Shown one piece after another: positions 15,096 through 61,837 of a DNA stretch of 64,000 nt. This stretch comes from Amphiura filiformis (lineage: Eukaryota > Echinodermata > Ophiuroidea > Amphilepidida > Amphiuridae), in contig NC_092628.1 of assembly GCF_039555335.1 (NCBI RefSeq), forward strand, positions 77,812,713-77,876,712, given 5' to 3'. A program made the position numbers and the translations under genes. How positions within the stretch are numbered: the first letter of the stretch is position 1; each line of letters starts with the position of its first letter. The notes under the pieces were generated by a model. That model was given only the letters and a program-made list of their open reading frames with translations. It was not told the origin of the DNA and made no database searches.

Positions 15096-18000
15096 TCACA
15101 AATTACGTTCTGTGAACAGTTTCCATGAATTGTTTAATATTTCCATTTCATTTTCAAATTCTCGCTCACTTCCCATAACAATTATTACAAGTACAGTAAC
15201 TGTAATTATAGCAGTGACCATGTTAAAAACTACCATCAGAAATCTATCCACAACGAGAGAAACTAATTTCCAATCATGGCGATTCTGGTTCTCTTCCTCC
15301 ATCTGCTCGTCAAAACTTTTGGATGACAGCTTCTCTGATTCTGTGTCAGCAGGCTTAGTTTCAGAGCGATCACGGCTTGTTTTGATATCACCCAGGCATA
15401 CAAGCCGTGGTAATTTCTGTAATAATAACCAATGCACCCATCCAGGAACAGGTCTGTGGGAGATACCATTTATGTGTATCACAAAGATGGTTCCAACAAC
15501 AGATCCACTCACAATTGTTATCATTGATAAAAAGAAAGAGCCTGAGGGAAAACAATTGAGACGTGTTAATAGAACTCTTTATATTTTGATATTTTGATAA
15601 TGAAAATAATGTCCTTTACGGTCACAATGAATGACAATACCGTAAACGTTCGCCTAATGGCGCACCTGGGGTCCTTTGCCTTGGGGTAAATTTAATGTAC
15701 AAATAGAGAGCTCCCTCCTCTAAAAATCCCAACAACAATTAAGGGTATGTACCCTTATTTTGTTGGTGGGATTTTTTGTGGGAGGGCACTTTTAGTTTGT
15801 GTCTAAAAATCCAGTTATGTCAAGGGAGAACATAGCGCCATTAGGCGAACGTTTACGGTATGGCATTTATTAAACGTATGCGTTGATTTGAATAGATAAA
15901 AACACAGATTGAGAATCTGTGATAAAAATAACCTAGATCTAATTATTTTATAGTTAGCATTACGTTTGACGCATTTCTTTAGTCCTGCTGTATACGACAG
16001 TTACCTTTACTGAGCACAGGACTAGCGGATTCACGCCCTCATATTAAATACTACCATCGGTCCATATACCCCAGCAGGTGGCTTCGCAGTTTCTTTGTGC
16101 ATTAACCAAAAATTAGCTCATAAAGCTGTTTTTAAACAAACCCGAGAAGCTGATTAAGCTTGTGAAAATAATTGGAAAACAATGACTACAAGTCTACTAC
16201 CTACCAATAATAGGTGATTCTGCACCACTTGGAGGCATATTATCAGAAATGATCTGCTGAAATACAACTAGAGCCAGCAGATTGGTGATGCATAGCGTCA
16301 CTTTTTCGCCGCTATCAGGTGGAAGGTAAAATACCATAAGTGAGAGAAGTGAAAGAAGACAAACTGGTATGATCAGGTATTTGATGTAAAAGTCTGGTCG
16401 ACGTTTGAATATCAGACGGTATTGGACTTCGTAGAAAGGATAAGGACAACATGAATAATGTGTTGTTATTTGCTTCTTATTAGTGGCGACCATGTCCCAA
16501 ACACCATTTTCCAAGTATCTGGATAGAAGAAACAATTGAAGCACTCAGATTAATTGATTGCCTAACACTTCATATTTGTTGCTCTTGTCTGTTTAGGCAA
16601 TCGGTCTGGGCGGACACACCACTTGGGTCTCCGTGGGACCACTGAATGTTCATGCGAAGCTGCAAGGCTGATATTAAAGCATAGAAAGCACAAAACTGGG
16701 CGATGAAAGGAAAGAAAGTTACCCTTAATAAATGAATTGCACAATATTATTCTTAGCCTTGGCATGAAGGTGCGGCCACGCATTGATGTCAGGTTTCATT
16801 TTTCCAGACTCCTAAACGGGTTTCAATCTTTTTGAGATTATCCCCGGTTGAAAAGTAGACATACACCAAATATGATGTGTGAGAAATGTCATGGATCAGC
16901 ACAAGTCATGTTATAGTTGTTTACTAACTTTTATATCTAGTAAGATTTTCAGGGCAAATTACTGAAAATGTTTAACTAAAGAGAAATGTCAGAAATAATT
17001 TGTTATACGTACATAGACAATACTGTTTACGTATGGATTTTCCCATTTTACTGTTTTTTATCGGTTTTACACATGGTCGGCAATTCTTCCCGAAAATACT
17101 CAACAAAAATATGCAAATTATATCTAAAGATACTAATTGATACCAAAGTTTACATTCAATAAATGCAGTGTGTAACAAACAAAGATAACATTTTCCGTAA
17201 ACGGCAACTTGTCACTTGTTGCAAATACCTGTTTATGGGCTCTTACCAGATATTAAAGTTCGTAAACAAAATAACATAATATATGACATGTACTGACCCG
17301 TGGTATTTCTCACAGATAATGCACATGATAGTTGGTGTGGGTCATGTTTATTTTTCAGCAAGGGCCAAATAGGGCCGATTTGGACCACAAATGACTTTTT
17401 GAATCAAAAATGGTTAAAAAGTCATATTTTTTTCCCATTTGGTCAATAATTCAAAACAGACATGAAGCCCATATCCCAAAACAACAACAAACCGTTCCTG
17501 GAATGAAGTGTTTATGTTACAAAAACACATTTATGATATTCTTCAAATTGGTGTTTTTCCTTTCTAAAAATGTGTTCTTTTACAATCTTGCATGAATACT
17601 GATAATTTAGGAGAAGCTGCAGCATTTTAAATTAATCCATTTCTTAGTGCTCAGTACTCTGAAGTTTACCTATTTTGATTGGTGTCTGTTCCCGTCTCAG
17701 GTATGAATTCAATTTCTTTTCCAGTGTAGCCAAAGGAACCAAACGTCATATCACACACCTGAATATCATAGGGAAACCACGTGACTCTTATAGCACAACC
17801 ACTGACGAACATAGTTGGAACATACCACGTGACCTTGCCTGTTGATGTCATGTATACTACCGTGTTTGATTTGAATCTTTGGAAAAACAAATCAACGCTG
17901 AAAAAACACAAAGCTGAATTGTTTTAATGTTGATGATGTTATGAATGGTTCTTATTCGATACCCTATCGATTACGGGGATGCGGACAGCGGGTCAATACT

Positions 18001-33703: not shown

Positions 33704-36700
33704 TCACAAACTACGTTCTGTGAACAGTTTCCATGAATTGTTTAATATTTCCATTTCATTTTCAAATTCTCGCTGACTTCCTATGACAATAATTACAAAT
33801 ATAGTAACTGTAATAACAACAGTGACCATGCTAAACACTACCATCAAATATCTATCCACAACGAGAGAAACTAATTTCCAATCATGACGATTCTGGTTCT
33901 CTTCCTCCATCTGGTCGTCAAAACTTGTGGATGGCAGTTTCTCAGATTCTGTGTCAGCAGGCTTGGTTTCAAAATGGTGACGGCTTGTGTTGATACCATT
34001 CAGGCATACAAGGCGTGGTAATTTCTGCAAAAATAACCAATCCACCCATCCTGGAACTGGTCTGTGGGAGATACCATTTATGTGTATCACAAAAATGGTT
34101 CCAACAACAGATACACTCACAATTGCTATCATTGATAAAAAGAAAGAGCCTGAAGGAAAACAATAGGGAATTGTTAATATTACTCTTTAATGATTTTGAT
34201 GATGAAAATCATTGGAAATGATGTCATTTACAGACAAAATGAATGACAATATGACATCCAATTATTCTATATTTGCATTACGTTTGCCGCATTTGTTTAA
34301 CACTGCTGTAAGTGCTGTTTATGACAGATATCTGTACTTGATAATTTAATTTCTTTAAGGAGTATAGCCTTCAGACAACGCCTTCCTTTACTGTACAGAC
34401 TGCGACAACAAGTAGTGCCACTCTTTACGACTGAACTGCCACGCATGTAAATTTGTGGAGTCAATTTAATTCTGCGAGCACTACTCTTAAGGGTACATTC
34501 TCTTTTGAAATTTTGAGAGCTAAAATGGGATGTTTTTGCCATATTAAACATCTAATTTGGCCTAGATATAATAATCGGAAATACGAAAGTTATATTGCAA
34601 CGGAAAGGGAAAGATTTATATATTATTATTTTTCCATTGCTATTTTAATTTTCAGACTCTGATTGGGACTGGGAGTGAATGAACTGGGTCATTGATTATA
34701 GCACTCGCTATTATTTTTTGGACCAGTCATTTCATCGATTTTCCTCATTCTGATTTCTAAACCAAATTGTAGTCATCTATAAAACATCCCATAATAATAT
34801 TCTTGCTATTCAGTTTTGATATCTCTACTTCAGAAATAAAATTACAAGTTGTAGAAAACCTAAATTTACGACTGAAATTTGTTTTCTTCAAAAATTTCTT
34901 AAAGAGTCTAGCTTTTATAGCTTGTTTAATTATTTTCAAAAAATTTAACTTTGCAAGATATGGTGCATATCTTCGGTACATGTGCATACTCAAATTTGGG
35001 GATTACGATCAGCCAATTTCGAAATATCAATTTTTTAGACGCTATGGTCAACACTTTTAAGCTTTTACACGATTCAGAGATATGGTCAATCGTGTAACAT
35101 TTCTTTCAATTCTATGTTACTTATTTGACAAAGTGCCAAACGAAATTCGCCTACATAAGCCACGACAAGGCCTGGTTGCTTGTATACTTTGCTACTCACA
35201 ATCAAATGACTGCAACTGGTTAAATTCCTGATTTTCCTGGCAAGAACACACGGAGAAATTTATATTTCACGCCCCGGCCATGTGTTTACGTTTCATGAGG
35301 TCATGGGTCAATCCGGCAAATCGAGATGTACACGAGAAGACTGCCGCGGATTTATATCCCGTTTGGAACATGATTGACCAACGATGTTGTGAATGTCAGA
35401 AGCTTTGGTCAGAACCTCTGGGTCAGAACAGGGCCAGTGTTTCATATTTCTAGTCAGAACAAACCAAGGGCACAATTAACACTTGGAACAAGAATGGATA
35501 TCGTCAGCCTACTACGATAATTGCCTATTTAAAGTTACTTTTTTTGTAATTTTGAGAACAAAGTACAAAATATGGTTTAACGATGCATTTTTAAATCATA
35601 TGTATGATTCACCAATCTTTGCTCAAGAACAAAATAATGATTAGGCCGGGGGGGCTATCATTTTCTTCGGAAGGGGGTCCCAAATATACAGAAGGGTTCA
35701 TAAATTTTTGGAAAGAAAAATATGGGGGGTCATAACATTTTTGATGACCAAAATGTAGGGAGTCACAAGATGACCACAGATAGTGTGGTTATTTTATTCA
35801 AAAAGACTGATTTCAATACAATTTTAGCCTGTTTAGGCCTAAGGGGCTGTGCAATTATGAGCCCCCCCCCCCGGGGGTAAAATTTCCAAATGGCTCGCCA
35901 AAAATCGCTTGCCACCCTTCTCGGCAAATATTACTGTATCCAAATGCTTGTTAAATTACTCGCGCATGCTCCAGCCGCTGGACCAATCACAGTCGACTCA
36001 GCGAGATCCTGCCGATGTTTGCCGAATGACCAGCCGAACTTTTAATCTTCGTGTGTTCGGCACGGGGAATTTAGAAAGGTCTTTGAGGGTTGAATGATGT
36101 TTTGAATCTGACAACTTTCTACTCGCATTTAGACAAAATGGCAATCTACACAGTTTTTTTAAACCTTGAAAATCGGTGAAGAAATAAGGAAAATAATGAC
36201 ATTTTTCAGCGCACATTTTTTGATCATCAGAATTTTTAGGCAAGCTGACAATTCTGGAACATTTTGGGGTATAAATTTCATCGCAAAATTCACAATTTCG
36301 TGGACTTTTTCGATGAATACTTTGATTTTTATCATTATCGGAAAACTACACAGTATAACACTGTGCAAGTTTTAACGTGTTACATTTTCGAGTTTTGTGT
36401 TACATTTACGCCAAAGTTGGACCAAATTTGAGCAATATTTCGGATTTTCCTGTTTCTACGTGTATAGGGTGCTTGCACGGAAGATCATAAAGATCAAAAT
36501 AAAACCATGTTTCTCGTCCCCTCCCGCTTCCTTTTTTATTTTTTAAAATTCAGTCAAAACTTTTGAAGAAAGATGTTTTGGAAGTTGAGATGTTTTCTAT
36601 AGCCTTGCTAATATGCAAGAAACACTTCTGGATGGTTTCTGTGATCACTAGTGGGGGCGTACCTACCAGAACAATAAAAAAGGGCCCTTAAGCCCCTCTT

Positions 36701-39700
36701 CCTCCTTTTTTTTAAAACCCGGACGAGAAACATGTTTTTATTTTTACTCGGCCAATTTATCCTCCAGACGCTCTCCAGATAATATGCTAATGCATGGAGT
36801 ACAATACCAATCACCTGTTTTACTGGTATTGATCAAAGTAATTCTTTGTACTCCATGCATTAGCATATCTTATGGAGCGTGTCTGGAGGATGATTTGATT
36901 CACGGAGGGAAGTGCAGTGCAGCGTGAGTGAACACGGGTCACTGAATTAGCATAAAGGTCACACAAAACAGCTTCCGCGCAAGCGTGGTAACCTCACAGT
37001 GAAAAGTTTGACCTTACAAAGCTGTCGAGTATTTAGATACAGCCACGGAATAGGCCTGGAAGCGGCGCTAGAAATTAGCATGAAGCCGCATTCATATGTA
37101 AATAGCGTATTGTTATTTAAATTTGCGCCCAGACGTATTGAGGGCGACAGTCATGTTATCCAGACAGAGAATGTCTTGAAGCGCCAGGCATGTCAAATTG
37201 CTGAGTGAATGTGTATAAATCCCCTTTCTGTATAGGTAATAAGCTAGTATATTTCGTGTTCCAGTTTGTTATAACAAAAAAATCAGTATTATATTAAATA
37301 TATTAAGTGTATAAACTTTGAAATTGACGTGAATTTGAAATGCAGAGCTCCAAATCTAGCTAAATCGTGTAGTGTGAAATTATGCTGTGTGACGCCCTCT
37401 GCGTGGTAGAATTATATTAATAAAACATTGAATTTAACATATAATATGGGCAGCCAACCACGATTTATCAGCATTTAAAAGATATATTAATTAACAAAGA
37501 TAAATAATCAATAGTACAAATGACAATTAACTTGTAAACAAGTCTGAAATCTTAAAATGTTGCCACGTGATTTCCCGAACACGTGATATGTCTACATGTG
37601 ACCATTATTCAGATTTACCGAAGTATTTAGAGTATGGTGCACGGCTTGCAGGCAACTGTGTATTTCTTTACCTCCGTATAAAATCAATAATTCATGCTGG
37701 GAGCCAAGTAACATTCTGTCTGCTTAGTGCAGTTTGGTATTTTATTTTACTTGAGAGCATATAGAAATACATAAGGCGCCATGATGGAAAGCTATGGAAG
37801 GTCAGGTCGGGTATCAAAGGTTATTTTAACTTCAAATACTACTTGTGTTTCACACCTTGCCTCTGTCACGTATTTCCTTCATATTATTGACCTCAAGTCC
37901 TAATTTTGACTTTGCTATTGCAAAATGTCATTTCATATCAAATTAGTAGACTTTCTTTGAAAAAAACATATCACTGGTGCCTGATGGGAATATCCGTCCG
38001 CCATTTCATTAAACTGGATCGTTTTCGCCTGGTTTGTGCCCAGATGTATTGGGGGGCGCGCTATACTCTCATTGAACAGGCAAAGTTCGCAAAACTAACA
38101 ACGTTGTTATTTGCCAATATCAATTAACATGATCCAAGGGGTCGAACATGAATTATTCATAACGGATCGATAACTGGCCTCACTTTCTAGCTAGTAAACC
38201 AGCGGAATTTTTCATAGGTTTTGCGTTGCTAATAGAACAACCGTGAATTTAGTGTCACCCCTTGATACAGCGGTATTCGCTACTTGCACAGTTCCGCCAT
38301 TATGCACTATGTGCGGGAGAGCCTCGAACTGGCAGCATACATGAATGGGAATTGAACTAGTCATAACGGTCTGTGTAAGGTTACATAATTCTTCTTTTCA
38401 TGTATGCTGCCAGTTCGAGGCTCTCCCCGCACATAGTGCATAATGGCGGAACCGTGCAAGTAGCGAATAGTGTGTAAGTTCGTAGTGCCCCTCACAGTGT
38501 CATCGACCCTATATCTTCATGGCAGAAATCGCCATGGTAGGTTGAATCCACAGCCACGATTGGCCATTTGGTTCAGACCTTTGAAGCTCTTTGAGACGAA
38601 TAATTAGTCGAGGGACATGACTAAGGCTACTCACAATAGCCGGGTAATTGATCTTGGTTGTGCGTGAATAAGCTTGTATACCCCATTGAGGTCAATGGTC
38701 ATCGACTTTTATACTGCCTAGTAGTGAGTGCAGCTGTACTACACGAAATAGTCCATACAGGACCAACGCAATATAAAATTAGAGTTTTGGTCCGATTTTG
38801 AGTTCAAAGCGCACGGCCAATTTTCAAAGCGCATTCTAGCGACCATCATATCTGTTCAACACGTATTTTCAAGTGTATGAGACCACATCTGGTTTCTTGA
38901 GAAAAATTCATTTACGGGAGATATTCATCATTTTCTAACCCGGTATCCGAAGATTTTCGTCTTATATCAAAATCGTGCATAGCAATTCACGTGTATCGAT
39001 CCCGTGTATTCATTTTAGTGTCTCTGCTGCACCAAATTTTGTATTTTAATCAGTAGGCCTATTGGACTATTTTCGAAGTTTAGAACTTCGGATCCCTTTT
39101 GTAGGCATAGATCCTGGTGGGATGGAGGATAAATCCCACTAATATTTTGCCAGGGGATCGAGATGGTCCATACAATCACCCTCCCAATGTTGACGCCTGT
39201 ATGTGGGTTTCTGCCAGGGGTTTCTGACCAAATTAACCTCATTGGCCATTTTAGCTAGCCCCCAAAGTGCAAATTTGTGCACGCTCAACGCGAATTTATT
39301 CCACTTTTGCATCTAGTAGGCCTATTTCACCAGTTATCTTCTAGTATTTTTTTCGTGCGCTTCGCGAGAATTTGTATCATTAACTTATAATGCTCACGGT
39401 CGCGAAAAGGTGCTGGATTCAATAGGCCTATACTTCAAAAAACATTTCCAACCCCCATCCCCCCAAATGTCAAAAGAAATCTACACCACTGCGCGCAATC
39501 CCTTTGCCGCCCTTCTTTTTCTGCCGCCCTTCTTTTTTGCCACCCCAAAAGCCCCCCCGTAGGCCTGTACGCGTAAATCGGGTATGGTCGTTAGGCGTAG
39601 GGTTTGGGCGAAATGACACCTAAAAACCCTAGGCATGCGGGGGGGGGGGCACAAGTTGATATTTTTGACGGGGTGGAGGCTCCAGACTTGAAACCCGTAG

Positions 39701-42700
39701 GCCTACCCATTGCCATTGACCGTGTACAGGTAGGGGCCTACCCATTTCTAAGGATTTTCTCATGATATAGACCCATGACCTAAAGTTTACTTTGAAGTCT
39801 ATATATACCCATTTTCCCCGAAAAGATCGAGATTTACGGTACGGGGGTTTAACGGACCCATAAGGATTTTCAGCAAAAATAGGGACCCATGTCTATAAGG
39901 ATTATTTGCAAAAGCGCAATCCCCGTATGCATTTGGCAGTATGGGAGTATCCCCCCTCCTTGGCCGGAGGCAATAGGCATGCCCATTGTCATTGAATAAT
40001 GATCAATAGACCTACAACAATATTTGGCTGATTTTATAATAATCATTTTTGTGAGCCCGGGTTTCAGTAAATCTAATATAGGCTCATATCTTCCATATGT
40101 GTTTTCACAGTGTTGCGTGCCCGGGCTGCATGCAAAACACTCAGTACTGCAAGTTACCGGGCCCTGCTGGGCGCCCGGTTTCAAGCATAGCGATATCCCG
40201 ATTATGCCCAATTTGACGAGTTTGCCGGACTGACGTTCTAATCGGAAACGCTTCAACTTGAGAGATAGTCTCCTTCACAATCGGTTTATGCTGTGGTTTA
40301 CGTCATTCTAAACACACGTCGTTCGTCCTAACAACATGCAGTCTGGACTCGAAACTAAGATAGTAGTTGGTGCATACCATGGAGCTTTATATAAATGGAC
40401 CGCACGCAATAAATCGGAGTTTGTTTTCATTAGCAACGGGAGACAAAATAGGGGGAAATTACACATTGGCACTTTTTTTCAGGATTCATGTTATTTTGTA
40501 TGAAGGATATGTATGTCTTCTTGTCAAAAATAAAATAAAATTTTTTCCCTATGTCAAGGTCATGACCCAAGAGAATGTACCCTTAACATGACTAAATACT
40601 ACCATTGGTTAACACTCGCGTAAGTGCCTTTGCTCTTTATTTTTGTTATAAGAAAAAATTTAGGAAGCTCATGAAGGTGCTATTTAATCAAATCTAAAAT
40701 CTGATTAATGTTGTTGAAATAACTTGACTACAAATTGGTACACTACTTACCAATAATAGGTGATTCTGCACCACTTGGAGGCATATTATCAGTAATGATC
40801 TGCTGAAATACAACTAGTGCCAGCAGGTTGGTGATACACAGTGTCACCTTTTCTCCGCTATCAGGTGGGAGGTAAAATACCATAAGTGACAGAAACGATA
40901 GGAGAGCGACTGGTATGATCAAATACTTGATATAAAAGTCTGGTCGACGTTTAAATATCAGCCGGTACTGGACTTCGTAGTAAGGAAAGTCGCAACATGC
41001 AAAGTGCGTTGTTAATTGCTTCTTATTAGTGGCAACCATGTCCCAAACACCATTTTCCAAGTATCTGGATAGAAGAAACAATTGAAGCATTTCAATTAAT
41101 TGGTTTCTTTTAATAATCCATGTCCTGATGCTAAGGAGGTCTGTTTCACAAGCTTGGGTCCTGATGGATCCAGACTTACGCAAAATGTCCATACAAAGCT
41201 AAGAAAAGCTTTTAAAAGTATGCTGGCCTGTATAAAGGCCCGTCACACTATGACGAATAGGGGTGAACGGCAAGCGACGTAAAGGCCCGGTCACACTATG
41301 ACGGCAGATAACCAACGAAAGGTTGGAAAAGAAAAAAAAAGGCCGACATCAATGCCTGTGTGTGTGCGGGTCGTATAGTCCACTTTGGCGTTCCCACTCT
41401 TCACAACGTTCTGGTCATCCTTTCAAAAATATCAATATCAACAATAATCAAAAATATTAAAATCAATATCAATAATAATCCAAACTATTAATATCTATAT
41501 CAATAATAATCAAAAATATGAACATCAATATCAAAAAATACTGTCGAAACGCAATAAACGCTCATTCTAGATCCCTTAATAAAATAAAAAGAAATCGATA
41601 GAATTAAAATTCTACAACGGTTTACCTGGGGTTCGAACCCACAATCTATGTACCCATAGTCTAATGCCTACACGACTGTGCTATGATTCGTTGTGCCAGA
41701 AAGGTGTTTGTTTATGATACTTATTGATTACGGAATAAAGTGCATACACACAATATACTATTACTAGTATATTAGTACTAATAAATACGAATATAATCGT
41801 AATCCTTACCCTAACCCTAATCCCTAACCCTAACACTAAACCCTAACCCTAACCCTAATACCTAACCCTAACCCTAACCCTAACCCCTAACCCTAACCCT
41901 TACCCTAACCCTAACCATAAGACCCTAACCCTAAGACCCTAACCCTGACAATAATGAACCTTGCCTCGGACTATGCGGTTAGTGATATATTGCGGCCCAT
42001 TATGGTTGCAGAAAGAAATTAAGCGTGCTGGACAGTCTATTGAAATCGAACTGACGTCAAAAAATGTCAAAAATCGCACAAAAGTTTAAAATCGTGGACC
42101 ATCGTTTAAAAATCGTAACCCATCGTAGACCACCCTTTCAATGCCGCAGGTACGTGCAAACGACCCGCCATCAACAGTCAACATCCGTCACCCTCCGGAC
42201 AAAATTCGCAAGTCACTGTCGCACCAAGATCGTTACAATTTCGTTACTTGCCACAATGTGTCGTCAGAGTTCGAGATGTGACGTCACTTGCCGTTGTTTT
42301 TTCGTCAATGGTCGTTGACAACGACTACCAACGAAATTGTGACGACCTCAAAACGACTAAAGACGGCTTATCACGGTATGGAAACGTCAAAGAAATGAGG
42401 GTTGCGGTTTCCAACGAAATCTGAACTGAGTCACAACTACTTCTTTTGCCGTTACAAAATTTGCTGTCGCTAACGGATTCGTCAGCGACAACTAACGGCA
42501 ACACACGAATTCAAAATTGCAATTCGCAGCTTAACGTCGCTTGCCGTTCACCCCTATTCGTCATAGTGTGACCGGGCCTGAAACCGGGAAAGTGGATCAG
42601 ATGACCATATCAGTCATACCTGATGAAGTCCTCCGATGAGTAGGACGAAATATTGTAGTGAGTACCAAATATTCACTTGGTTTTGTCAAACTAAAATCTA

Positions 42701-45700
42701 AATTGTCTATTTACTGAACAAACCTGATGAATCTGTTCAACGAATTGTGTAAAATGTCTTCTTTTTTCTTTAATTCTCGGCTTTCGGCTTAACCACTAGC
42801 ACTTAACAAAACAAAGGTGCCAAAGTCTGAATTTTATGATTTTTACGATCCTCCGGGAAATCACTGAATAGGACTTTAAAGAAAATATCAGAAATAAGCT
42901 CTGTTGGACATTTGTTATTGAATTCATAAATAAACAATAATTTTCCGTATGGTTTTAGTATCGGCGAGTTTTACGATTTTGTGTTGCACTTTGATTTGGT
43001 CCCCCATCTATCAGGTGTACACAGTACTCACAATAAGAATCATTTTTTTCACAATGGTATGACCAAACTTTATGTCCAAGCACGTCACTCTTCTGGTGTA
43101 TTTTGATTGATACCAAAGATGTATTCGTAAACAAATGACATCTGACCCATGGCATTATTTTCTCACACAGGATAGTTGGTTTAGGTAATTTTTACTTTGT
43201 AACAGGGGCTGAAAAGGATCGCTATGAACTATGATACACCTTAAGAGTTTTTATGTGCTTCTTGATATTTATTGAACAAATAGATCAACATCAAGTTACA
43301 AAAATAACAGATTTTTTAGCATATTTGTAACGTTTACGCATGTCTTAACTTGCTTTAACGGACGCATTGAACAAGCGTTTACTTCGACGGATCTCTAAGC
43401 TGTTTATGTTCTGAGCACTTTTAATATTTAGGCTTACCTATTTTGATTGGCATCTATATCAGCCGCTGGTATAAACTCAAGTTCTTTACCAGTATATCCA
43501 AATGAACCAAACGTCATATCACACACTTGAATATCATAGGGAAACCACGTGACTCGTATAGCACAACCACTAACGAACATAGTTGTAACAAACCACGTGA
43601 GGTGGCCTGTTGATGTCACGTATACTACCGTATCTGATTTGAATCTTTGGAAGGACAAATCAAAGCTGTAAAAAAGCACAAACCTGAATTGTAGTAATGT
43701 TGATTATTTTATGGTATCTCCTTGGATTACAGTTGGATAATTTCCAGATTCACTGGAGGGACCTCAATGCCTTATTATTATAATGCGATTATTCATCGGC
43801 AATCAACATTGAATGAAGTTACATGTAAAGCTCCCTTATTATTGCAAGCTAATAGTTCAATACCACCTTGACAGAAGCTTGCACAAGCTAATATCGATAT
43901 CCGGGGACGACGGATGGCACTAGATTTTTGAAGTGACGGATGCGGACAGCGGTTCAAACTGAACCCACTGAACTAGGGGTCTTTTAGTAAGAACTTCTCC
44001 TTCCGTATAATGGGGTTTTTAGATTAGAATCCCCTAAAACAGGGGAGTAAAACATTGAGTAAAACTGACAATTATTCTTGGGTAAATTACAAGCATTCTG
44101 GTCTTTTAGAGAAAAATGGGGTTTGTTCGGTGAGTGCTTATCTAAAATACGCTCAGAACTATTTAAAGAGGAGGTCATAAGACATTGAAGGACAGAAAAA
44201 CAAAAAAGACGGTCATTTGGTGAGAGGGAGTTGAAAAATTGGTGTCAATATGGCCACATATCCCCGATACCTTTATTTTTGTGCGGTTGTTATCTGAATG
44301 CATTCGCACGATCTCGTCGCATATGTAGTATGACGTTATATGATATGGAACGAGACTAACTGTAAAGTCGTTCCGGAAAAGCATTTCGGACGTCCTTTTT
44401 AAAATCAACTTTCCCAAAACCTCAATTGTTAATTTTTTACTTTTTTCGCAATACATCCCACTATAATTACACCATCACATTCCATACATTATCATGATTA
44501 ATATGATCATTATAAAACATACTTTTCGTAAAATGTTATATCTGGTTTCCAAACTGAGTCTGAAGGCAGGTAAATACCACTGGTTCCATTGTATTCTGCT
44601 GGTTCCCATGTTAGAAACTCATCGGTCCATGCCTAAGTATTCAACAGTATATTTATTCGACAGTAATTGATAATTAATTTGCTTATACACTTTTTATCAG
44701 AACACTTGAAATTGGTTTTAGGTGTGTTATAATTAAGTTCTAGTAGTGTGAATTTTACTGAGAAAGCAAAACATTGCACAGTATTGATTTCTGTTTTGTA
44801 GTTCGTTGTATAGTTTTGTTGGCATGTTTGAAGCTCCTACACAACTCTTCATCCGACTAGCAATCGTGCTTCTTATTCTTTGCTAGTTGCTACTGTCTTT
44901 ATAAAATAAAAATATATTTATAAGAAACACTAAGGCTAATCGGAAAAAATCGGCAATCATAATAACTCTGGCCATAGTACCCGCAGACGGATGACAACGA
45001 GTTTTCTATTAGCAACGCAATCTATGACGAATTCTGTTGGTTTGCGATCTACAAAGTGAGGCAAGCTATCGATCGGTATGAATAATTCATACTTAACTCT
45101 TACTCTGGCCTTATATTGAGGTCCCCAAGGAACACCAAAAAGACATCAATAGCTTACAAAATACTGATCAAATGGTCAAAATACTAATTTCAAGGATTCC
45201 GTTCTCAGTTTAAAATGAAGTAGTTTTTTTTGGTAAAAATAAAGTTCATTTTCACCCCATGTCCAACGCTTTGGCAAGTAAGAAATGGATTTCTGAATGC
45301 TAACGAAGATAACATAGACACCATCAAACTTTTAGAACAAAATTAAATCGATGTAATTAAGCTGATAGACTATATACAGCTCACACTTGGAACACTCTGT
45401 CAAGATTGTTGTTTTTCTCTCCTTTATAATATTAAACATTAAACCGGGAATTCTCATGCCTAATTACATGTATATATGCATTGCCATTTTACATTCACAT
45501 TCAGCAACAGCGTTTGTCTATGTATTTCAATGAATGTTACCAGGGAATTCTCAAGATAATAAAAGATTGCGATGTATTAAAATACCTGGTGCGTGTCAAT
45601 CGCGGTTCCAAGCTTGATTGTCCCCATTCGTCACGAAGGAAAACAATGCGGATGGAACAAAGACTAACATCAGATCTGGTCACTAGAGGGCGACGTGGTT

Positions 45701-48700
45701 GACATTTAATGGTCCTATGTCTACTTCAATACAACATGCTTTTGTTTTGACTAAAAACCAAGGTTAGCATGCTGCTTAAAATTAATTGTATTTCAGTGCT
45801 TCCTAAATATTATGGCGTTTCGTGGTGAAAATTAGGCGAGTTGCATGCACGGTCGTGACGTTGAAATTGACATTTTTACGGCGCGCCGTAAAAATGTCAA
45901 TTTCAACGTGGACCACGCCTATATACCGTGCGTTTGTATCAACAATCCAAATCGCAATCTATTTTTTTATACAGCCAATCTCACACGCATTTCAATGTAC
46001 ACTCTCTACGTATGAACCGCGCGCTTCAAAACTGGTGTGGCTAAATACGCGATCTCGCTTCGATACAGGAGCGTAATTTTGAATAGATCCGCGGGCGTAC
46101 GATCACGGCGTTTGGAAATCACAAGCTATCTAATAATAAATCTGACTGACTTTGTTATTGTGATTACAATACAATAAATTGATGGCAAGCCTACTCACAA
46201 GTTTCAGCCAGGTGTCCATGATGAAGTACTGATTTTTCATATCCTGCAACAAAATGAAATAGTTAGATTTCGATTCGACTTTACACCATTTCATTCATTT
46301 GTTTGCTAAGTATGGCAGATTAAACATCCAAAAAAGTAGACAAAATCAGGGGTTTGCCGTTAACTCAAAATGTCTTTCAATCAGCAGTGCACACAAAATT
46401 GTTGACCCAAATTTTTATTCAACAACGCCATTCGTGTACCGACAGCCTGGGGGAGGGCACCGGCCCGGCTGGCAACGCCACTGACTATTATAAGAAAAGA
46501 GTAATATTTAATAGGAAAGGTAAAATTTTAACATTGTATATTATTTTATAATTGGTAAAATATACAGGGTGTCCCAAAGAATTGCAAAAATCAAGCTTTA
46601 ATATGGCGCAAAAACCTACCATCTGAACGAGGTTGTTGAATAGTGGACGAATTGTAATTTTTGTTAATGTTGAGGTCTGCTTCACTGGTCTGATGAACAC
46701 ATCGCCATAATTCGTCATCAAGTGATCTCGTAACTGCTGATGAGGTGATCCCTTACAATCTGAGGATTAAGGATATTTAGAAATAGTATAAGGGGCTGTG
46801 TAATAATTATGAGCCCTGGGGAGGGTAAAATTGGGGGGCAAGAAATTTTGGCGAGCCAAAAGGGGGGCAAGCAATTTTGGCAAGCTGAGAGGGGGGGCAA
46901 GCGATTTTTGGCACACATTCATGGGGCGCCTTTTAATAAAACGCTCTAAAAGGCTTAGGAAAACAGTACGGAAACGCTTAAATATGCAAATTTTCCTGCT
47001 CGCTGCGCTCGCAACAGGTATATAGACCATTTAAGGTTTGTAAATTGGGATCCCAAAATTTGGCATGCGCAAGGGGGGGGCAAAGAATTTTGGCGGGCCG
47101 AGAGGGGGGGGCAAGCGATTTTTGGCAGGCCGAGAGGGGGGCAAGCAATTTTGGTGGGCCGTTCAGAAATTTTACCCCGGGGCTCATAATTATTGCCCAG
47201 CCCCTAATACGACCGGGTACGACGTAGTTTAGACCATATTATTATATAATTGGTTTTATATTAATTATATTAATGATTAATAGTATTTGCATTCGGCTCA
47301 ACATTGAAGAACGTTTTTTGAATGTTTCATAAAATTTGTTTTATGTTTTATGACTTTTATTCCTCATTTGAACTGCCAAAACAATCAGACCTCGTTTACA
47401 TAGCATCTCAAGGTCTAGTTAACGTACTGTAAAAGCTATCTTGTAAAAAACAACCATAATATTATGTTGTGTGGTAGATGTGTGTTCAATGTTCAATTGC
47501 TTATCATATGACTTACGCAGCTCGAATATATCTTTCAAAAGCACTAATCATTGCTCTTGAAACTATCTATAAACATTCAAAAAGTACATGACTTAATTTG
47601 TAAAACATGTCCCTATCAGCCTGGTTCGACTTCGACCCAGTGAGTAAAACACAATAAGCTATCAAAGTACCAAATGGCATAATCGTACTTGCCATTAAAC
47701 ATTAAACAAGCTAGTCGCTAGATGGCATCAATTCATTTAATTCAGTGAAAGATACTGCCTAAAAGATCTAGTATATACAGTTACCCTGGTAACGGCACAT
47801 CGTCAAACGGCACACCATAACAGTATAGTTCATAAATACTTTATATTTATTTATTTAAATAAAACACTTGTTTTTCAATAAGAATCCTTTCAATGCACAC
47901 TGCATGGCATCATTAAGTCGTCTGCTTGATAAAATATTGATTAAAGCGCACAATTCTCCTTCGGCGTACAATATTCGTTCAACAAGCATTTGTGATTCCA
48001 TCTTTTCCAATTTATTTTTAACTTCTAATAATGAATGATTGTTGATTCCGAATGACTCGTGGAAATATATAATCAATTATACGTCATCAAACATTAGTTA
48101 GATTTTAATATGACTGGAAATAGAATGGGAATGACACGGTCCATTGAATAGTATATAGCGGAAGTAACTCCGATTTCCTTATGTTACCACCCTTACTTTT
48201 AGCGTTAGTATTAGCAAATGAGGATTAGTTTTATGATATAATATGTTAGGAAATCACAGGTGGAGACCAAAAGTCAGCGAAAACAATTAACCTAACCAAC
48301 TTGTGAGTGTAGGGAGGATGTTGAAACCCGCTGATTTTTGGTTTTTCTCTTTCATTTATATTTTTGGGTTATTGAATCCAAAGTTAATATTATGTTAACA
48401 TACTATAATTGGTTTCCTTTGATATTTAGCCAAAATCAATTATCAGCCTATAGGATTCCCCAATTTTGCAAAGGCGCACATGTATAATGACATCACGGTG
48501 ATGTTATATGTGGAATGTTGAATTGTTGATACTTATTGTGGTATAAAAAACATATTGGGTTGGGTGTAATAAACCCCTGACTGTTCCCAACCCGTCCCGG
48601 TGTTCATGGACCCAACGCAATTATAAGCTTTATAACAGAGGCTTTCTTGGGTTACCTAGGGTTGCGATCATATCATGATATGCGACAATGTAACGTCTAA

Positions 48701-50819: not shown

Positions 50820-52255
50820 GCAACTAAATATGTACAGTGATGTGCAATAAAAACTAATAGAAAAGTGGCTACTTGGAAGAGTCCCTTAATGCCAACTTGA
50901 AGGCACCAAGAGATCTGAAGTCTGCTAGATCTTTTTCTAGTTTATTCCAGCCTCGGCTTGAGCATCGGAAGAAGGATGAGGCAAACTGTTGTGTGCTACA
51001 GTAAGACAACCAGAACCTGGAGTCATGACCTCTTGTGCGAGATTTCGCTTCTTAGAGGTAGTCTTTCCAGTCGATGTCTACCAAGTTGAATCTGACGCGG
51101 TATAACATGGATAGTTCTGTTCTGTAGTCGCCTGTTTTCAAGTGACGGCCATCAATGTCCTTCAGCAAGGATGTTACACTTGTATGACGATCATAGCTGC
51201 CAGTGACATAGCAGGCGCTGCTGCGCTTGACCTGCTCTATCTTTTGATGTTTAATACGCTGGGCTGCAGCAGCGTACTCCACAACCGGTCGAACGTATGT
51301 AATTATTATGGCTTCTTTGATCCTCCTACTGCCTGAGGTGACTTTGGCAGGAATACTAGACTACATTTTTTGGGCGTGCCCTCTGGGGAAATACTGGAGC
51401 CAGAGTAGTGTGCTGCCAAGAATTCCATAGGAGTTGGCCTTTTGAATAAGTAGGCGGTACGAGACCTGGTCAAAGGGTTTTGCAAAGTCCAGCAGGATGA
51501 GGTCGGTTTGGGTTTTCTCCTATAATTCCTTGGTTGGATCTTGGATGGTGATGATTTACGCTTACGGAAGCCGTGCTGTGAATCAGTTAAGATGTTGTTG
51601 ATACTGAGATGCTTTAGCAGTGAACTACGTGTTCACACAATTTTATATAGCTGTTAGCGAGATCGTTCTATAGTTGGATGCTAATGACCTACAGCCCTTC
51701 TTGAACACTGGAACAAAAAGTGCCATCTTCCATGCAGGTGGAACAGAACCCCGATCGAGTGAAGCTTTAAAGAGAAGCGTGGTGGCTGAGCAACTTCTTC
51801 AGCTATTTGTTTCAGCAGCATGGTTGAGACACCGTCTGGACCAATATGGCCTTCAGATTCCATAAGAGCTTAATGACACCAGAGCAGTTCACTTCTATGT
51901 CACTCATCGGAGGAATTTAGACCAGGTCGATGGTCAGGAAGCTCAGCGGTTTCATCATTGGTGAAAACTGATGAGAACTGGTGGTTCAAGATTGTGGCTT
52001 TGGTCAACGGGTTACTGTGCAGCAGGTTGCCTTCTTTGAGACGTACGTGCCACACTGGCGCTTGATCACAGCGCCTGAGAACTGGCGGTTTAAGATGGTG
52101 GCTTTGGACAACGGGTTACTGTGCAGCAGGTTGCCTTCTTTGAGATGTACGTGCCAAACTGGCGCTTGATCACAGCGCCTAGCTTTAATTAGAGCTCACA
52201 GTCTCTTGTTGTTTCCTGGGTCGCTACATTATGATGTCGGTAAAATAGTTGCTGT
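50820..52255 (-). mobile_element. CR1/L2-like LINE fragment with an internal 104-bp tandem duplication
   Basis: Minus-strand order: 'GPDGVSTMLLKQIAEEVAQP' (start of the reverse transcriptase domain), then 'FLAAHYSGSS', 'EYAAAAQRIKHQKIEQVKR', 'LSMLYRVRFNLVDID' and the closing 'SFFRCSSRGWNKLEKDLADF'. The frame is broken by stops and shifts. A 104-bp unit is repeated in tandem at 51973-52076 and 52077-52180. It lies upstream of gene 3. Confidence 0.78.
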
Positions 52256-54600: not shown

Positions 54601-54891
54601 TCGGTACAAAAAATATCACATACCTAGTAATTTGATTGTGTAAAATTGACCGGTGTTTTGATTGATTGAGTAACAAAGTAATGTTTTACTCAATAGCTAA
54701 GATTTGTTTTAAATTTACATAATTATGATGTTATCGATACTGTGTAAAATTTACATAGTTATTTGTACCAGCTAAAATACAAAAATGTATGGTGTCAAGA
54801 CAATTACAGTCCAAATATGTTACTTAAAGCCATACGGTATTACAAGATAATATATGCCCCAAATATCTATGTAAAACACATTCTAAGCTGC

Positions 54892-57800
54892 TCACAAACT
54901 ACGTTCTGTGAACAGTTTCCATGAATTGTTTAATATTTCCATTTCATTTTCAAATTCTCGCTCACTTCCTGTAACAATTATTACAAGTACAGAAACTGTA
55001 ATTATAGCAGCGACCAGGTTAAAGACTACCATCAGATATCTATCCACAACGAGAGAAACCAATTTCCAATCATGGCGATTCTGGTTCTCTTCCTCCATCT
55101 GGTCGTCAATACGTTTGGATGACAGCTTCTCAGATTCTGTGTCAGCAGGCTTGGTTTCAGAGTGATGACGGCTTATTTTTATACCATCCAGGCATGCAAG
55201 CCGTGGTAATTTCCAATCATGGCGATTTTGGTTTTCTTCCTCCATCTGGTCGTCAAAACGTTTGGATGACAGCTTCTCAGATTCTGTGTCAGCAGGCTTG
55301 GTTTTAGAGTGATGACGGCTTGTCTTAATACCATCCAGGCATACAAGCCGTGGTAATTTCTGCAATAATAACCAATGCACCCATCCTGGAACAGGTCTGT
55401 GGGAGATACCATTTATATGTATCACAAAAATGGTTCCAACAACAGTTCCACTCACAATTGTTATCATTGATAAAAAGAACGAGCCTGAAAGAAAACAATT
55501 GAGACGTGTTATTAGAACTCTTTAAAACTCACAGAAAGCTCATAAACAGTAACACATAATATTTAATGAATCATTTGACATATTTTTTGTCTCATCAAAT
55601 ACTTAAAATGAAAACGTTTTGGATTTGATATGACACATATGCACTAAGTGCACTAGTGAACAATGAAAATCCATACATATAATTTCTTTAAATGTTACTT
55701 ATAATTACCAAATCTTACCGTATTAAATCTAGGAAATTATTTTTGTGACCTAATAATTTTTGCCGGAAAAACTGGCAAAAACTGTTTTTGCCAAGTGAAA
55801 AAACCGCGGTTAAAACCACGGGTTTTTTTTCACCTGCGGCAAAAACCTGCGACCCTGAAGTCTACTACCTACCAATAATAGGTGATTCTGCACCACTTGG
55901 AGGCATATTATCAGAAATGATCTGCTGAAATACAACTAGTGCCAGCAGATTGGTGATGCATAATGTCACTTTTTCTCCGCTATCAGGTGGAAGGTAAAAT
56001 ACCATAAGTGACAGAAGGGAGAGAAGACAAACTGGTATGATCAAGTATTTGATGTAAAAGTCTGGTCGACGTTTGAATATCAGCCGGTATTGGACTTCGT
56101 AGAAAGGATAGGGACAACATGAATAATGTGTTGTTATTTGCTTCTTATTAGTGGCGACCATGTCCCAAACACCATTTTCCAAGTATCTGGATAGAAGAAA
56201 CAAAATTGATTACTTAACACATCATATTTGACCGATTTGGACCACAAATGTCTTTTTTAATCAAAAATGGTAAAAGGTCATATTTTTTCCTATTTGGTCA
56301 ATAATTCAAAACATAAAGCCCACCAAGAAATGTAAAAACAACAACAAACCGTTCCTGGAATGTAGTGTTTATGTTACAAAAACACATTTGTGATTCTCTC
56401 CAAATTGGTGCTTTTCCCTTCTAAAATTGTATATTTTCATAATCTTGCATGAATACTAATGTATTAATTAAAAAGAAGCTGCAGCATTTTAAATTGATCC
56501 ATTTCTTAGTGCACATACCCTGAAGTTTACCTATTTTGATTGGTGTCTGTTCCCGTCTCAGGTATAAATTCAATTTCTTTTCCAGTGTAGGCAAAGGAAC
56601 CAAACGTCATATCACACACCTGAATATCATAGGGAAACCACGTGACTCTTATAGCACACCCACTAACGAACAGGCTTGGAACATACCACGTGACCTTGCC
56701 GGTTGATGTAACTAAAACTACCGTATTTGATTTGAGTCTTTGGAAAAACAAATCAACGCTGAAAAACACAAAACTGAATTGTATTAATGTTAATGATGTT
56801 ATGAATGGTCCTTATTCGATACCCTATTGATTACACTTTCGAAGTAACGGGGATGCGGACATCGGGTCAATACTAGGGGTCTTTCATTGAGAAAGTTGAC
56901 GCTTAAAAGGGGGTATTGGTATTAAGAAGCCAAAAATACCGTGAGTCATTGAGTGAGAACTCCCTGAACAGAGTGTCATTCAGTGTGATACCTGGACAAT
57001 TTTTGACCCATAACTGTGCCGAAAGTCAAAAATGTCAAAAAAGGAATCTAAATTGAGAAAACTGAAAATTATTTTTGGGAAACTACGAAGATCTTGTCTC
57101 AATGGGGGCGAGGGTTTATATACCTAAAATACGTTCAGAGAGGGTCATATGACAATGAGTGACAGCAAAACAAAAAAGTCATGGGTGAGAGAGAGTTGAA
57201 AAATGGGGTCATTATAGCCGCACAATCACGATACCTTTTTTGTGTGGTTGTTTTCTGAATGCATTAGCTTAATGTTCAATTGCTTGATCATTTTCCCCAA
57301 TCACGTCATTTAAATTATAATTTCTCGGGCTTGCATCGTTTATTTCCGATCCTCGCATATATTAATTTGTGTTTCGCATTGTCTTACGCCCTGCCAGGGT
57401 GAAGCATATAGGCCGCCTCCTTCTTCATTATTTATGCATTAGCTTAATGTTAGAAATTATTTTTAACTGTTGCGATTTGGTAGTTCACAGCATGTTGCGA
57501 ATGGTAGTGAGCTTTGGCTAAAATTGCTTGATCATTTTCATAGCGAGTGTGTAGAAGAATTCAAATATCACATATATACATTTGTAGTTCCTGTGGTTCT
57601 TGAGTTATGTTGTAAAGAGGGCTGAAACAACAACACTTTTATAAAACGTACATAACTCATTGACAACAATAAATTAAGCAAGTTTTCAAAGTATATGATT
57701 TGTAGAATGAACTATTTTATTTTTCAATAATATATTGATTTAGATAATACAAAATGACTTTTTGGTTGCTTCGACCAACAATACTTAGTCTACCCTTAAT

Positions 57801-60115
57801 CACGTTGAATATGCGATATGATGTTAGCTCAGTTTGAACAAGTTTACGGTTCTCCAGAAAAGTATGATACATACTGTAAGTTTGGAAATTGCAAGCTCTC
57901 TAGTATTATGATTCAGACTTACTTTTCTAAAAATGTTATATCTGGTTTCCAAACCAAATCTGAAGGCAGGTAAATATCACTGGTTCCATTGTACTTAGCT
58001 GGATCCCATGTTAGAAACTCGTCGGTCCATACCTATAATTATTCAACAGGGTAGTAATATTATTTGGCTCGATAACTCGCATAATTGATAATTAAATTAT
58101 TGCTGATACACATTTGTATACCTTAACTTGTAATTGATTTTAGGTGTGTTATATCAAGATTCTAGCAGTGTGAATTTTAAGGTAATAAATAATTAATGTA
58201 GTTACTCATTTTTTGTGCATGTTATCTTTACAAGCAGATAAGAAAGTATTAACCTGTTTGATGGGAATTCATACCATCGGATCCATTTTGTTGACATTAC
58301 AGTTTTAAGCTTCTTATTCCTTCCTGATGTCCTTACGAGTAATTCTGCTAAAACAGGATTGAGTGATTAGATATTGGGCAGAGTGCTCTTTCTTGAACTG
58401 ATCTTCGGGTTTCGACGCAAAGCAGCACCAACCAAAGCAATAATTGCGTTGAGTTCTGGCACTCTTCGGACGTCCAGAGCCGTGTTTGTTCCAATTTTGC
58501 ACAGTTCCGCGTACGCCAAACTTAACTGCCCATCTTGATATTGATGAGTTGCTAGGGTCGCGTACTCCAGGGAATCGCCTCCTTGTCTCCGCATAATTTT
58601 TAGTGGCAAAATATAATTTGATAAAGAAGGCACGTTGTTTGGGTTGTAAATTGCTGCATTATACCTTTTTCGTGTGCTTTAGTCAGCTTACTCATGTAAC
58701 TGGATTACTTATGATTAACCAGTACTTCATACGGTACACATTTCCCTTTTACATTTTAAAAGCCCGCCAACCTATCCTTATATTCCTGCATGTTGTTATT
58801 TAAATTTTGTAATCAATAAACACTTCATGCCACAGGTATTATGCAAATAACGATCAATATGTTCATCCAAAGTAGAGTAGTCATGGCGATTTTGTTCCGC
58901 CGTTTAACAGCAATGCAAGACAGGAAGATATGGAGGGCCATCACAGTTCGAGGACACCACTCGACATAGGCAGGTAGGCAGACTCGGGCGAAGTATGAAG
59001 ATACGATAGATATTTCCCGCTATGCAATGCGCCACTACGCATCTTTCACCCTTCAAAACGCAATCAATTCCGAAGTTTGGGCAATGTTTGGTTTCAAAGC
59101 ATCCTCTGGGAATTCAAAGCACCGATGTAAGCTTACCGTAGTCTTTCAACACACATGTTCATGTACACGTCAAACAAAAGGTTAATAATGAGACCAAAAA
59201 TAAAGCAGGCAAAAATAAAGTAGGTATCAAAGGTTGAAGGTATGAATTTTGTACATCAGAGTCAATTTCGATGACGTCACTGGCAACCACGTGATTCGCT
59301 AGGCGTATTTCTATTGGCTAGTTTTCCGACCGTACTGAAAGAATTATTTACCTAGTGTAGTCGATATGTGTGTTAGCTGTAGTTACTTCTTCAGTTGGTG
59401 TTCACATCCATCCCTCCTCAGAGGGTAGCTGATTTCTAGTAACAGCAAGCCCACTTTCACTTTAAAGCACTGTTTGTTATAACTCAATGCAATCCGACCA
59501 GCCGTTCGGTCCCGTGACACTATAGGCGTAGATCCCGGGGGATGGGGGATAAATCCCCCTCAATATTTTGCCAGGGGGATGGTCCATACAATCACCCCCT
59601 CTCCAAATTAACCTCATATTTGGCCATTTTAGCCCCAAAAGTGCAAATTTTTGCGCGCTACGCGGGCATTCCACTTTTGCATCATATTTCAGCAGTTACG
59701 CTTCAATATGGCAAATATTGGAATAAACTTATTCTGTAGCCAAAAGGTGCTGCATTCACTATACTTCAAGAATTTCTTTCAAACCCCATCTCACCCAATG
59801 TAAAAAGGAAAGCAACGCCACTGCACACACTTGGTATAAAGACATAGTTTCCTTACAAATTGGTCATGAAAACCAGGAAAAATCGGTAAAAAAATCGTAA
59901 AAAAATTGACCATTCACTTGCAAAATAAAATAAAATATACAATAACCATTGATGATGTTGTGGAAATGTCCATGTCATACGCTAAGAGGAAGCTAGTAAT
60001 ATCAGATAAAGAAAACCCAAAAGGGGTAAAATACGGATTAGGGAGGCTACTTGTATCAGGTGCCGAGGGAAAAACACATGCAGAGATGAGTGAAACTATA
60101 ATGTCTTGCCAATTA

Positions 60116-60148
<33 letters not shown>

Positions 60149-61837
60149 CACAATTCTTTTATAAAGCGCCGTTACATCTAGACCACAGCGCATAAACAAA
60201 TTCAAAGCATAAATACAATATAACAAAACAAAGTGAGCAATAAAAACAGTCAACTTTTTGGGAAGAGATTTGATTACAGTAATTTCTTGAAGACTGGTAA
60301 TGAGTTTGCAGTACGAATGGTGATGGGTAAATTGTTCACAGTCCAGGAGCAGCCAGAGAAAAAGCTTTATTTGCGGCAGAATGGAGAGATTTGGCATTTA
60401 ATTTATGTATAGTAAGCCGTGTTGTATCTGAAGCAGAGCGAAGTACAGTACGGGATTGATGGTAGGGTGTGAAACAAGAAGCTAAATAACCTGGAGCTTG
60501 TCCATTCAAGCATTTAAACATATACAGAAGTACTTTGAAATTAATGCGCTCTTTCACAGGGAGCCAGTGGAGTTGTTTTAAAAACGGAGTTGCGTGATCG
60601 AATTTTGATGCATCAATCAAAATAATTATATACCATCAACAATTTCGACCACACTCTAGCGCCACCAACGGTAGCAACTTCAGGAAAGAAAGAGCTACGA
60701 GTATATGAAGAACTTATTTCAAAACCGTGTCCACAACCACATGTTTCTCATTTACTTGTGTGATACAATCACAATTGCTTTATTATTACAATGAGTTATA
60801 CCATCAACAAGCCATTATTTACCACAACAATGCTGGTTAACAATATGCAGACTATTGTTCTCATTTGGGAATCAAAGGCCTCACACAGTATTGTCACTGT
60901 GCATCCATCCACTGTTTGCTTTTTAATGGTGGATCCAACTGAAATAATAAAACATCACAACCATTGCAATATCGCACAGGTAAATCAGAAACATGTGTTT
61001 GTGGACTTAACACGATTTGTAAAATAAGCTCTTCATATTTATTGGCTATCAAGATGAACCTTATGTATATCGCACAATATCTGTCTACTATACTAAAATA
61101 ATGAGCGAATTGTGTGTGTGTGTGTGTGGGGTGTCTGTCTGCCTGGTTGTCCGGCTATGCGTTTGGCCGCGCCTCGACGCATCGATCCGATTTTTCGGAT
61201 ATGGATAGGTATCGAGAAAAGCATGTTGACCGGGTGGTTTTCGAAGTCATCAGAGGTCAAAGTCAAAGGTAAAAATTCAAAACTTTGTCCAATCGGGCTC
61301 AAATTTTGTGGATGGCATCTTTAACACAAGGGGAATGTATGCGTGAAATAAAATGAAGGTCAAAGGTCAAAGGTCATTACGGAGGGTTAACATTTCAAAC
61401 TTTGTCCGATCGGGTTTAAACTTGGTGCGTGGAATGAGGGGAGAGGAACATGTAGAAAAATAATCGAGGTCATCCGAGGTCAAAGGTCATCCAGGGGTTA
61501 AATTTCAAACTTCGCCCGATTGACTTAAACTTAGTGAAAGTATTAAATTCTCCGTATTACGGGAGCATGAACTAAACTCAAACCGAATTCACTTGAGGTC
61601 AAAGGTCATATGGAGTCAAATGTTAGAGGATGCCCAATCGCGCTAAAAGTGGTTAAAATATCCTCAATATAACGTGAACATGTCAAAAAGTCAAAAGGGT
61701 CATCAGGGGTGAAACAGCATCGCTATCATGCAGTTTCTCTCACAGCTACGGGTGAACTAATGTTAATCTAAATTACTGGTAGGCATACTCACAAGTTTCA
61801 GCCAGGTGTCCATGATGAAATACTGATTCTTCATATC
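54892..61837 (-). CDS. Gene 4 (partial): nicotinic acetylcholine receptor-like subunit with duplicated cytoplasmic loop
   Basis: Exons found: 61793-61837, 57923-58032, 56531-56758, 55873-56186 and 54892-55484, i.e. 429 codons plus stop. The leader exons and the 140-nt exon lie beyond the window: no match was found from 61838 to 64000. The motifs are the Cys-loop C-x13-C, loop C 'HYSCCPYPFY', 'DSGEK', M1-M4 and the outer tail. The loop A Tyr is Leu ('WKPDITFL') and loop B reads 'GSFAYTG'. The last exon is 593 nt instead of 446 because of an in-frame 147-nt tandem duplication. It is closest to gene 2 in the Cys-loop and M1-M3 exons. Open throughout what is visible, so probably functional. Confidence 0.92.
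55061..55354 (-). repeat. 147-bp in-frame tandem duplication in gene 4 M3-M4 loop
   Basis: Units 55061-55207 and 55208-55354 each encode 49 residues (KLPRL...NRHDW) and differ at four amino acids. The breakpoints share AATTTC (at 55061, 55208 and 55355), which is consistent with slippage or microhomology. Genes 1 to 3 have one unit. Confidence 0.95.
58314..58640 (-). mobile_element. DNA-transposon relic: transposase N-terminal helix-turn-helix (DUF4817-like)
   Basis: The minus strand reads 'NYAETRRRFPGVRDPSNSSI', 'SRWAVKFGVRGTVQNWNKHG' and 'SGRPKSART'. After a frame change it continues 'ALVGAALRRNPKISSRKS', and in the first frame again 'SRITRKDIRKE'. This is the order of the mariner-type helix-turn-helix domain (DUF4817). 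The DDE catalytic part is missing. Absent from the matching gene 2 intron (about 19500), so inserted after the split. Confidence 0.6.
59523..59830. mobile_element. Copy of the 39100-39490 repeat (hAT-like)
   Basis: Same block order as the 39.1-kb copy, ending in the complement of CAGTGGCGTTGC. Inserted in gene 4 intron 4, within sequence that is continuous in gene 2 (near 20000). Confidence 0.6.
60119..60645 (-). mobile_element. CR1/L2-like LINE 3' end with (TATG)n tail
   Basis: The minus strand encodes 'LKQLHWLPVKERINFKVLLY' and 'LNGQAPGYLASCFTPYHQSR', the classic LINE C-terminal signature. A short 3' UTR follows, ending in about eight TATG units (60121-60150). Five-prime truncated. Gene 2 lacks it at the matching place (about 20310). 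Confidence 0.75.
60707..61034. mobile_element. MITE with ATAT target duplication, empty site in gene 2
   Basis: The ends are GAAGAACTTATTT and, on the right, the complement of GAAGAGCTTATTT. ATAT lies on both sides (60703-60706 and 61035-61038). Gene 2 reads straight through ('AGTATATTTATTGGCAATC' at about 20350). Non-coding. Confidence 0.8.
61080..61760 (+). mobile_element. Helitron-like non-autonomous element with (GT)n and DR1-like repeats
   Basis: Begins TCTGTCTACTATAC and ends GGTGAACTAA, inserted between A and T with no duplication. Gene 2 has the empty site ('CACAATATGTTAATC' at about 20393). A 5'-TC and a 3'-CTRR end at an A/T junction are Helitron hallmarks; a clear 3' hairpin was not seen. 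The interior has (GT)n at 61111-61128 and four loose repeats of about 110 bp around 'GAGGTCAAAGGTCAT' and 'AACTTTGTCCGATCGGG'. Confidence 0.72.

Follow-up and report, generated by a model that had tools for sequence, protein, structure and literature searches.

The last coding exon of gene 4, an alpha-type nicotinic-receptor-like gene of Amphiura filiformis, contains an in-frame internal tandem duplication of 147 bp, by which a 49-residue unit of the M3-M4 loop is present twice. The gene is the fourth in a tandem array found in the window, the whole stretch of 64,000 nucleotides that was analyzed (Table 1). Tandem Repeats Finder detected the repeat at 55061-55360 with a period of 147, 2.0 copies, 94% matches, and 0% indels. 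The two copies, named U1 and U2, lie head-to-tail, and both of them keep the open frame. They differed at 8 of 147 nucleotides (5.4% divergence) and at 4 of 49 residues; four changes were synonymous, and the four replacements were at unit residues 6, 13, 19, and 35. The last exon was 593 nt long in gene 4 versus 446 nt in all three paralogues, a difference of exactly 147, and genes 1, 2, and 3 each had a single unit. Four of the statements made in the sequence-only reading, namely the in-frame 147-bp tandem duplication in gene 4, the 49-residue segment repeated with four amino acid differences, its position in the M3-M4 loop, and the 593-nt last exon, were borne out by these results and by the loop analysis below. 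The names M3, MX, MA, and M4 were assigned from an alignment to nicotinic chains and from the general layout of the family. Built on the observed anatomy, paralogue state, junction, frame, and divergence of the repeat, our best explanation as a whole is a germline duplication via the hexamer GAAATT, after which U2 would serve as the working MA and U1 as a spacer; we give it a probability of about 0.7.

Table 1. Positions in the window of the receptor genes, their exons, and the parts of the repeat in gene 4
Feature	Position	Strand	Remarks
Four-gene tandem array	2943-61837	minus	alpha-type nicotinic-receptor-like genes; large introns and other sequence between
Gene 1	2943-7243	minus	exons B-G
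Gene 1, last exon	2943-3388	minus	446 nt, one unit
Gene 2	15096-21719	minus	
Gene 2, last exon	15096-15541	minus	446 nt, one unit
Gene 3	33704-46757	minus	
Gene 3, last exon	33704-34149	minus	446 nt, one unit
Gene 4	54892-61837	minus	exons C-G
Gene 4, exon G (last coding)	54892-55484	minus	593 nt; M3, M3-M4 loop with duplicated unit, M4, stop
Gene 4, exon F	55873-56186	minus	loop C with vicinal Cys, M1, M2
Gene 4, exon E	56531-56758	minus	Cys-loop
Gene 4, exon D	57923-58032	minus	ligand-binding domain
Gene 4, exon C	61793-61837	minus	45 nt
Unit U1, first copy in protein	55213-55359	minus	49 aa, KLPRLV...RHDW; positions derived from exon offset 125
Unit U2, second copy, next to M4	55066-55212	minus	49 aa, KLPRLA...RHDW
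GAAATT box, 5' end of U1	55355-55360	minus	
GAAATT box, U1/U2 junction	55208-55213	minus	
GAAATT box, 3' end of U2	55061-55066	minus	

Two other origins of the repeat were rejected. Chance similarity was ruled out by 147-bp copies matching at 94% without indels, and exon duplication by the position of the repeat inside one exon, with no intron at the repeat edges. Roughly two-copy tandem duplications were also present elsewhere in the window, at 7796-7909 (60 bp, 94%), 25842-26052 (111 bp, 89%), and 51972-52180 (104 bp, 94%). All three lie outside the modelled exons. Duplications of this kind may be frequent in the genome.

The exon lettering of the array is our own; exon B was modelled from its third base, and the gene models start at exon B at the earliest. 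Three pieces of gene 4 matched Pfam profiles, Neur_chan_LBD at 2.1e-18 and Neur_chan_memb at 2.5e-11 and 5.8e-16, and by these profiles gene 4 is a member of the neurotransmitter-gated ion channel family. The Cys-(13 residues)-Cys loop CAIRVTWFPYDIQVC and the vicinal cysteines (CC) of loop C were present in all four gene models. Among the best 60 of 200 matched sequences, the closest solved structures were nicotinic alpha subunits, with an alpha-3 fusion first (4e-49), followed by muscle alpha from 3.3e-43 and alpha-7 from 2.3e-42; matches to 5-HT3A started at 2.9e-33. Genes 1-4 resemble alpha-type nicotinic receptor genes in sequence and are putative acetylcholine-receptor relatives. When the gene 2 last-exon product was compared with prokaryote genome contigs and with viral contigs, none of the 52 and 10 pattern matches, respectively, was confirmed, as expected for an animal gene, and Rfam at gathering thresholds gave no matches in the analysis. 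Between genes 2 and 3 there was a reverse transcriptase ORF (PF00078; 26631-27533, plus strand), and in an intron of gene 4 a helix-turn-helix ORF (DUF4817; 58317-58658, minus strand), both of which are probably mobile-element remains. An intron of gene 3 contained telomere-like TAACCC repeats at 41800-41946.

The edges of the duplicated unit coincide with a short direct repeat. The last exon of gene 4 had GAAATT (AATTTC on the plus strand) three times (exon offsets 124, 271, and 418), which agrees with the earlier observation of AATTTC at each boundary and its interpretation as microhomology. Genes 2 and 3 had GAAATT at exon offsets 124 and 271 around the single unit, 147 nt apart and in phase; gene 1 had the first box only, the second being absent, which is a point against the origin proposed below. 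The box is read in frame as Lys-Leu at both places (QKLPRL at the MX end and WKLVSL before M4), and because it stands in the same phase at both unit ends, the frame is necessarily kept when the stretch from one box to the other is duplicated. Of 62,520 position pairs lying 60-299 nt apart in the gene 2 exon, only 18 started a match of at least 6 nt, the GAAATT pair included, and only 4 of these 18 pairs were spaced by a multiple of 3. The presence of one unit in three paralogues indicated that one unit is the likely ancestral state. We propose that a single 147-bp tandem duplication arose in the germline within the last exon of gene 4, probably once genes 2 and 4 had separated. It would have used the 6-nt repeat, whose two occurrences already had a spacing of 147 nt in the ancestral exon; as both code for Lys-Leu in the same phase, at the MX end and just before M4, the reading frame would have been kept. 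The resulting loop would have the order MX, linker, MA-like stretch, MX-end-like stretch, linker, MA, and M4. Slippage, end joining of staggered breaks, and unequal exchange could each leave such a junction, and these routes are discussed in PMC5730883; the sequence of the GAAATT junction does not choose among the three.

The synonymous divergence between U1 and U2 was 0.147 (4/30 sites), and that between genes 2 and 4 was 0.122 for the remainder of the last exon and 0.185 for exons C-F; the sites are so few that these three values were not treated as different. The base at unit position 100 (in the Arg codon CGT) was common to U1 and U2 and was found in no paralogue. U1 and U2 were separated by 8 nucleotide differences, less than either copy from gene 2 (13 and 12) or from gene 3 (15 and 15). 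Among the four trees tried, the best likelihood was obtained with U1 joined to U2 beside gene 2. In the AU test none of the four was rejected: the two trees separating U1 from U2 had p = 0.13 each, and the tree in which U1 and U2 were kept together but adjoined gene 3 had p = 0.22. These results suggest, with weak tree support, that the duplication probably took place in gene 4 shortly after genes 2 and 4 split. This age estimate would not hold for copies derived from diverged alleles.

Such a source is implied by an unequal exchange between diverged alleles or paralogues, which would have set ready-made different copies side by side so that the 5.4% divergence is not a measure of age. The AU test permits this origin, since p = 0.13 belongs to the trees in which U1 or U2 is grouped with gene 2, and unit position 36 was common to U2 and gene 2 only. 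The divergence of the array was also mosaic between exons, with values of 4.5% for exon D of genes 1 and 2, 7.9% for exon E of genes 1 and 3, and 3.2% for exon F of genes 2 and 4; this pattern suggests exchange among the paralogues, likely as gene conversion. However, the base at position 100 common to the two copies and the short distance between them argue against it, and so does the like behavior of U1 and U2 at sites distinguishing gene 2 from gene 3, with 9 matches to gene 2 and 7 to gene 3 for U1 versus 10 and 7 for U2. We consider unequal exchange of this kind unlikely. A paralogue mosaic as the source of the differences between U1 and U2 gave no signal, the copies behaving alike at those sites, although the topology test was too weak to dismiss this candidate. 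Around and after the gene 4 stop (54867-54899), gene 4 matched gene 3, not gene 2, at seven successive sites at which the two differ (439, 450, 453, 459, 461, 469, and 471 in the numbering of the one-unit exon), and both flanks behaved otherwise; this may be a short, gene 3-like conversion tract in gene 4.

In the protein, the unit extends from after the tryptophan part of MX to the conserved Trp before M4, that is, from the MX end to the MA end, and the M3-M4 loop, delimited as in 5-HT3A, had 120 residues in gene 4 versus 71 in genes 1, 2, and 3. The repeated segment had been described as acidic from the sequence alone. This description did not hold: the net charge (K+R minus D+E) was 0 for U1 and -2 for U2, and only the last 15 residues were acidic (-5). 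According to PMC3335078, 5-HT3A stays functional when two to seven alanines take the place of its loop of 115 residues, a one-alanine loop fails, and loop length and composition can affect expression and desensitization. On these results the longer loop of gene 4 is likely tolerated, but it need not be silent.

In 5-HT3A, positions 435, 436, 439, and 440 have strong effects on conductance, a conserved Trp stands at 442, and positions 426-431 were put outside the influence of the portal, as described in PMC3814755. When the four portal positions were counted from the pre-M4 Trp, they were E, N, R, and H in U1, U2, gene 2, and gene 3, and E, R, R, and Y in gene 1. U2 was replaced at residues 6 and 35, which were invariant across U1 and all three paralogues, and residue 35 corresponds to 428 by the Trp count, within the range 426-431. 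If the mapping from 5-HT3A onto gene 4 applies, little change in conductance is predicted, because U2, the M4-adjacent copy, has the same residues at the portal positions as genes 2 and 3. Altered protein behavior had been put forward in the sequence-only reading, in which the loop was said to control trafficking and conductance; with these positions kept and a loop near the length of that of 5-HT3A, the evidence leans against an effect on conductance.

The AlphaFold2 model built from the exon product by itself (mean pLDDT 55.3) gave M3 and a short MX helix, left U1 (42-90, with low confidence) and early U2 (91-121) without structure, and formed one continuous helix from the MA part of U2 into M4 (residues 122-171). 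With the four-sequence alignment (mean pLDDT 51.9), the U2-M4 helix spanned 115-195, the MX helix was lengthened to residue 50, and a short helix appeared at 75-86 in the MA part of U1 with a pLDDT of about 40. Both loop models are poor by mean pLDDT. Because both of them give the U2-M4 helix, we read U2 as the copy that would form the working MA helix and U1 as probably a 49-residue flexible spacer; because the second model places a short helix at 75-86, a role of U1 as a spacer only is not secure. The replacements of U2 at residues 6 and 35 also speak against this assignment of roles. As a spacer, U1 would have little effect on pore properties and perhaps some on expression, desensitization, partner binding, or phosphorylation.

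The short helix bears on a different reading, in which the extra copy is functional: the MA-like stretch of U1 would be a second intracellular helix, or W-K-L-P-R-L a new binding site, and trafficking or conductance would be changed. The whole MA-like stretch is indeed duplicated, the helix was formed there in one of the two models, and a dN/dS of 0.24 between U1 and U2 hints at constraint on both copies. However, the helix had a low pLDDT and was absent from the other model, and four synonymous changes of eight were not significantly above neutral (P 0.06 to 0.11) and are only suggestive of constraint on the units. In addition, the part of MX before the unit, with a Trp that we aligned by eye to the RIC-3 motif of 5-HT3A (described in PMC10083716), was not duplicated. 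We regard a functional extra copy as improbable, and still more so its specific form in which each loop has two MA-like helices that add a second acidic ring beneath the channel, or in which a new partner-binding site is created at the W-K-L-P-R-L junction. If this were true, the conductance or trafficking of pentamers with a gene 4 subunit would not be the same as for genes 1-3. U2 had 3 replacement changes and 1 synonymous change versus 1 and 4 in U1, but a faster replacement evolution of U2 was not significant (Fisher p 0.21), the synonymous site of unclear direction at position 36 being assigned to U1.

The duplication could also have been tolerated because gene 4 was unused and decaying. 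Exon B, the start of the mature protein, was not found for gene 4 between 61837 and 64000 (2.1 kb upstream of exon C), though it sits 376 to 1106 bp upstream of exon C in genes 1-3. The window, however, simply stops at 64000, and exon B of gene 4 may lie beyond that end. The five exons C-G had standard splice sites and an open frame throughout; for exon G, the model was based on the splice acceptor TTTCAG/GCTCG, a frame open to the stop, and the Pfam Neur_chan_memb match. Comparison of genes 2 and 4 gave a dN/dS of 0.14 in exons C-F, with 10 synonymous and no replacement changes in exon F, a strong constraint by which gene 4 is judged to be under purifying selection. We regard decay of the gene as improbable. 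An assembly artefact, in which two haplotypes of the unit were joined in tandem, is very unlikely: 8 differences in 147 are within the allelic range of very polymorphic animals, but the join is in phase and coincides exactly with a microhomology of 6 nt, which is much shorter than the overlaps of assemblers, the flanks are not duplicated, the matching stopping at 55061 and 55360, and the open frame is kept in both copies.

We regard the duplication in gene 4 as an ordinary lineage-specific variant in a variable loop. It offers a clean natural example of how a microhomology coding for the same dipeptide in the same phase at two sites can double a structural unit of a receptor loop while the gene stays intact, and the single-copy sister genes next door provide a natural control for the effect of loop length.

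Among the papers listed in our literature search, none was seen to describe a repeated unit in the M3-M4 loop like that of gene 4, which is weak evidence of absence. Gene 4 is like the vertebrate nicotinic alpha subunits (alpha-3, muscle alpha-1, and alpha-7) in the Cys-loop, the vicinal Cys, and the best sequence match to solved structures (among the best 60 of 200 matched sequences); unlike them, it carries a tandem unit from the MX end to MA in its loop, and the loops of its paralogues are short, with 71 residues. We know of no comparable recent duplication in 5-HT3A. The M3-M4 loop of 5-HT3A is similar in length (115 residues, according to PMC3335078, versus 120 in gene 4), and both proteins have the Trp before M4, which is called entirely conserved in PMC3814755. 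5-HT3A also has a short DWLR...VLDR motif at MX and again at the MA-M4 transition (given in PMC10083716), but this double motif is a different thing from the 147-bp repeat of gene 4. Internal tandem duplications of coding exons, such as FLT3-ITD, are like that of gene 4 in being head-to-tail with microhomology at the junction, and the duplication is in frame in gene 4; microhomology-associated tandem duplications after staggered breaks are treated in PMC5730883. Unlike those of the FLT3-ITD type, the gene 4 event would be germline, lies in a receptor loop, and comprises copies 5.4% diverged by age or joined from already diverged copies. CHRFAM7A, a partial duplication of CHRNA7 exons 5-10 as outlined in PMC8998457, likewise involves a nicotinic gene, but it is a separate gene made from whole exons, whereas gene 4 has a sub-exon repeat inside one gene.
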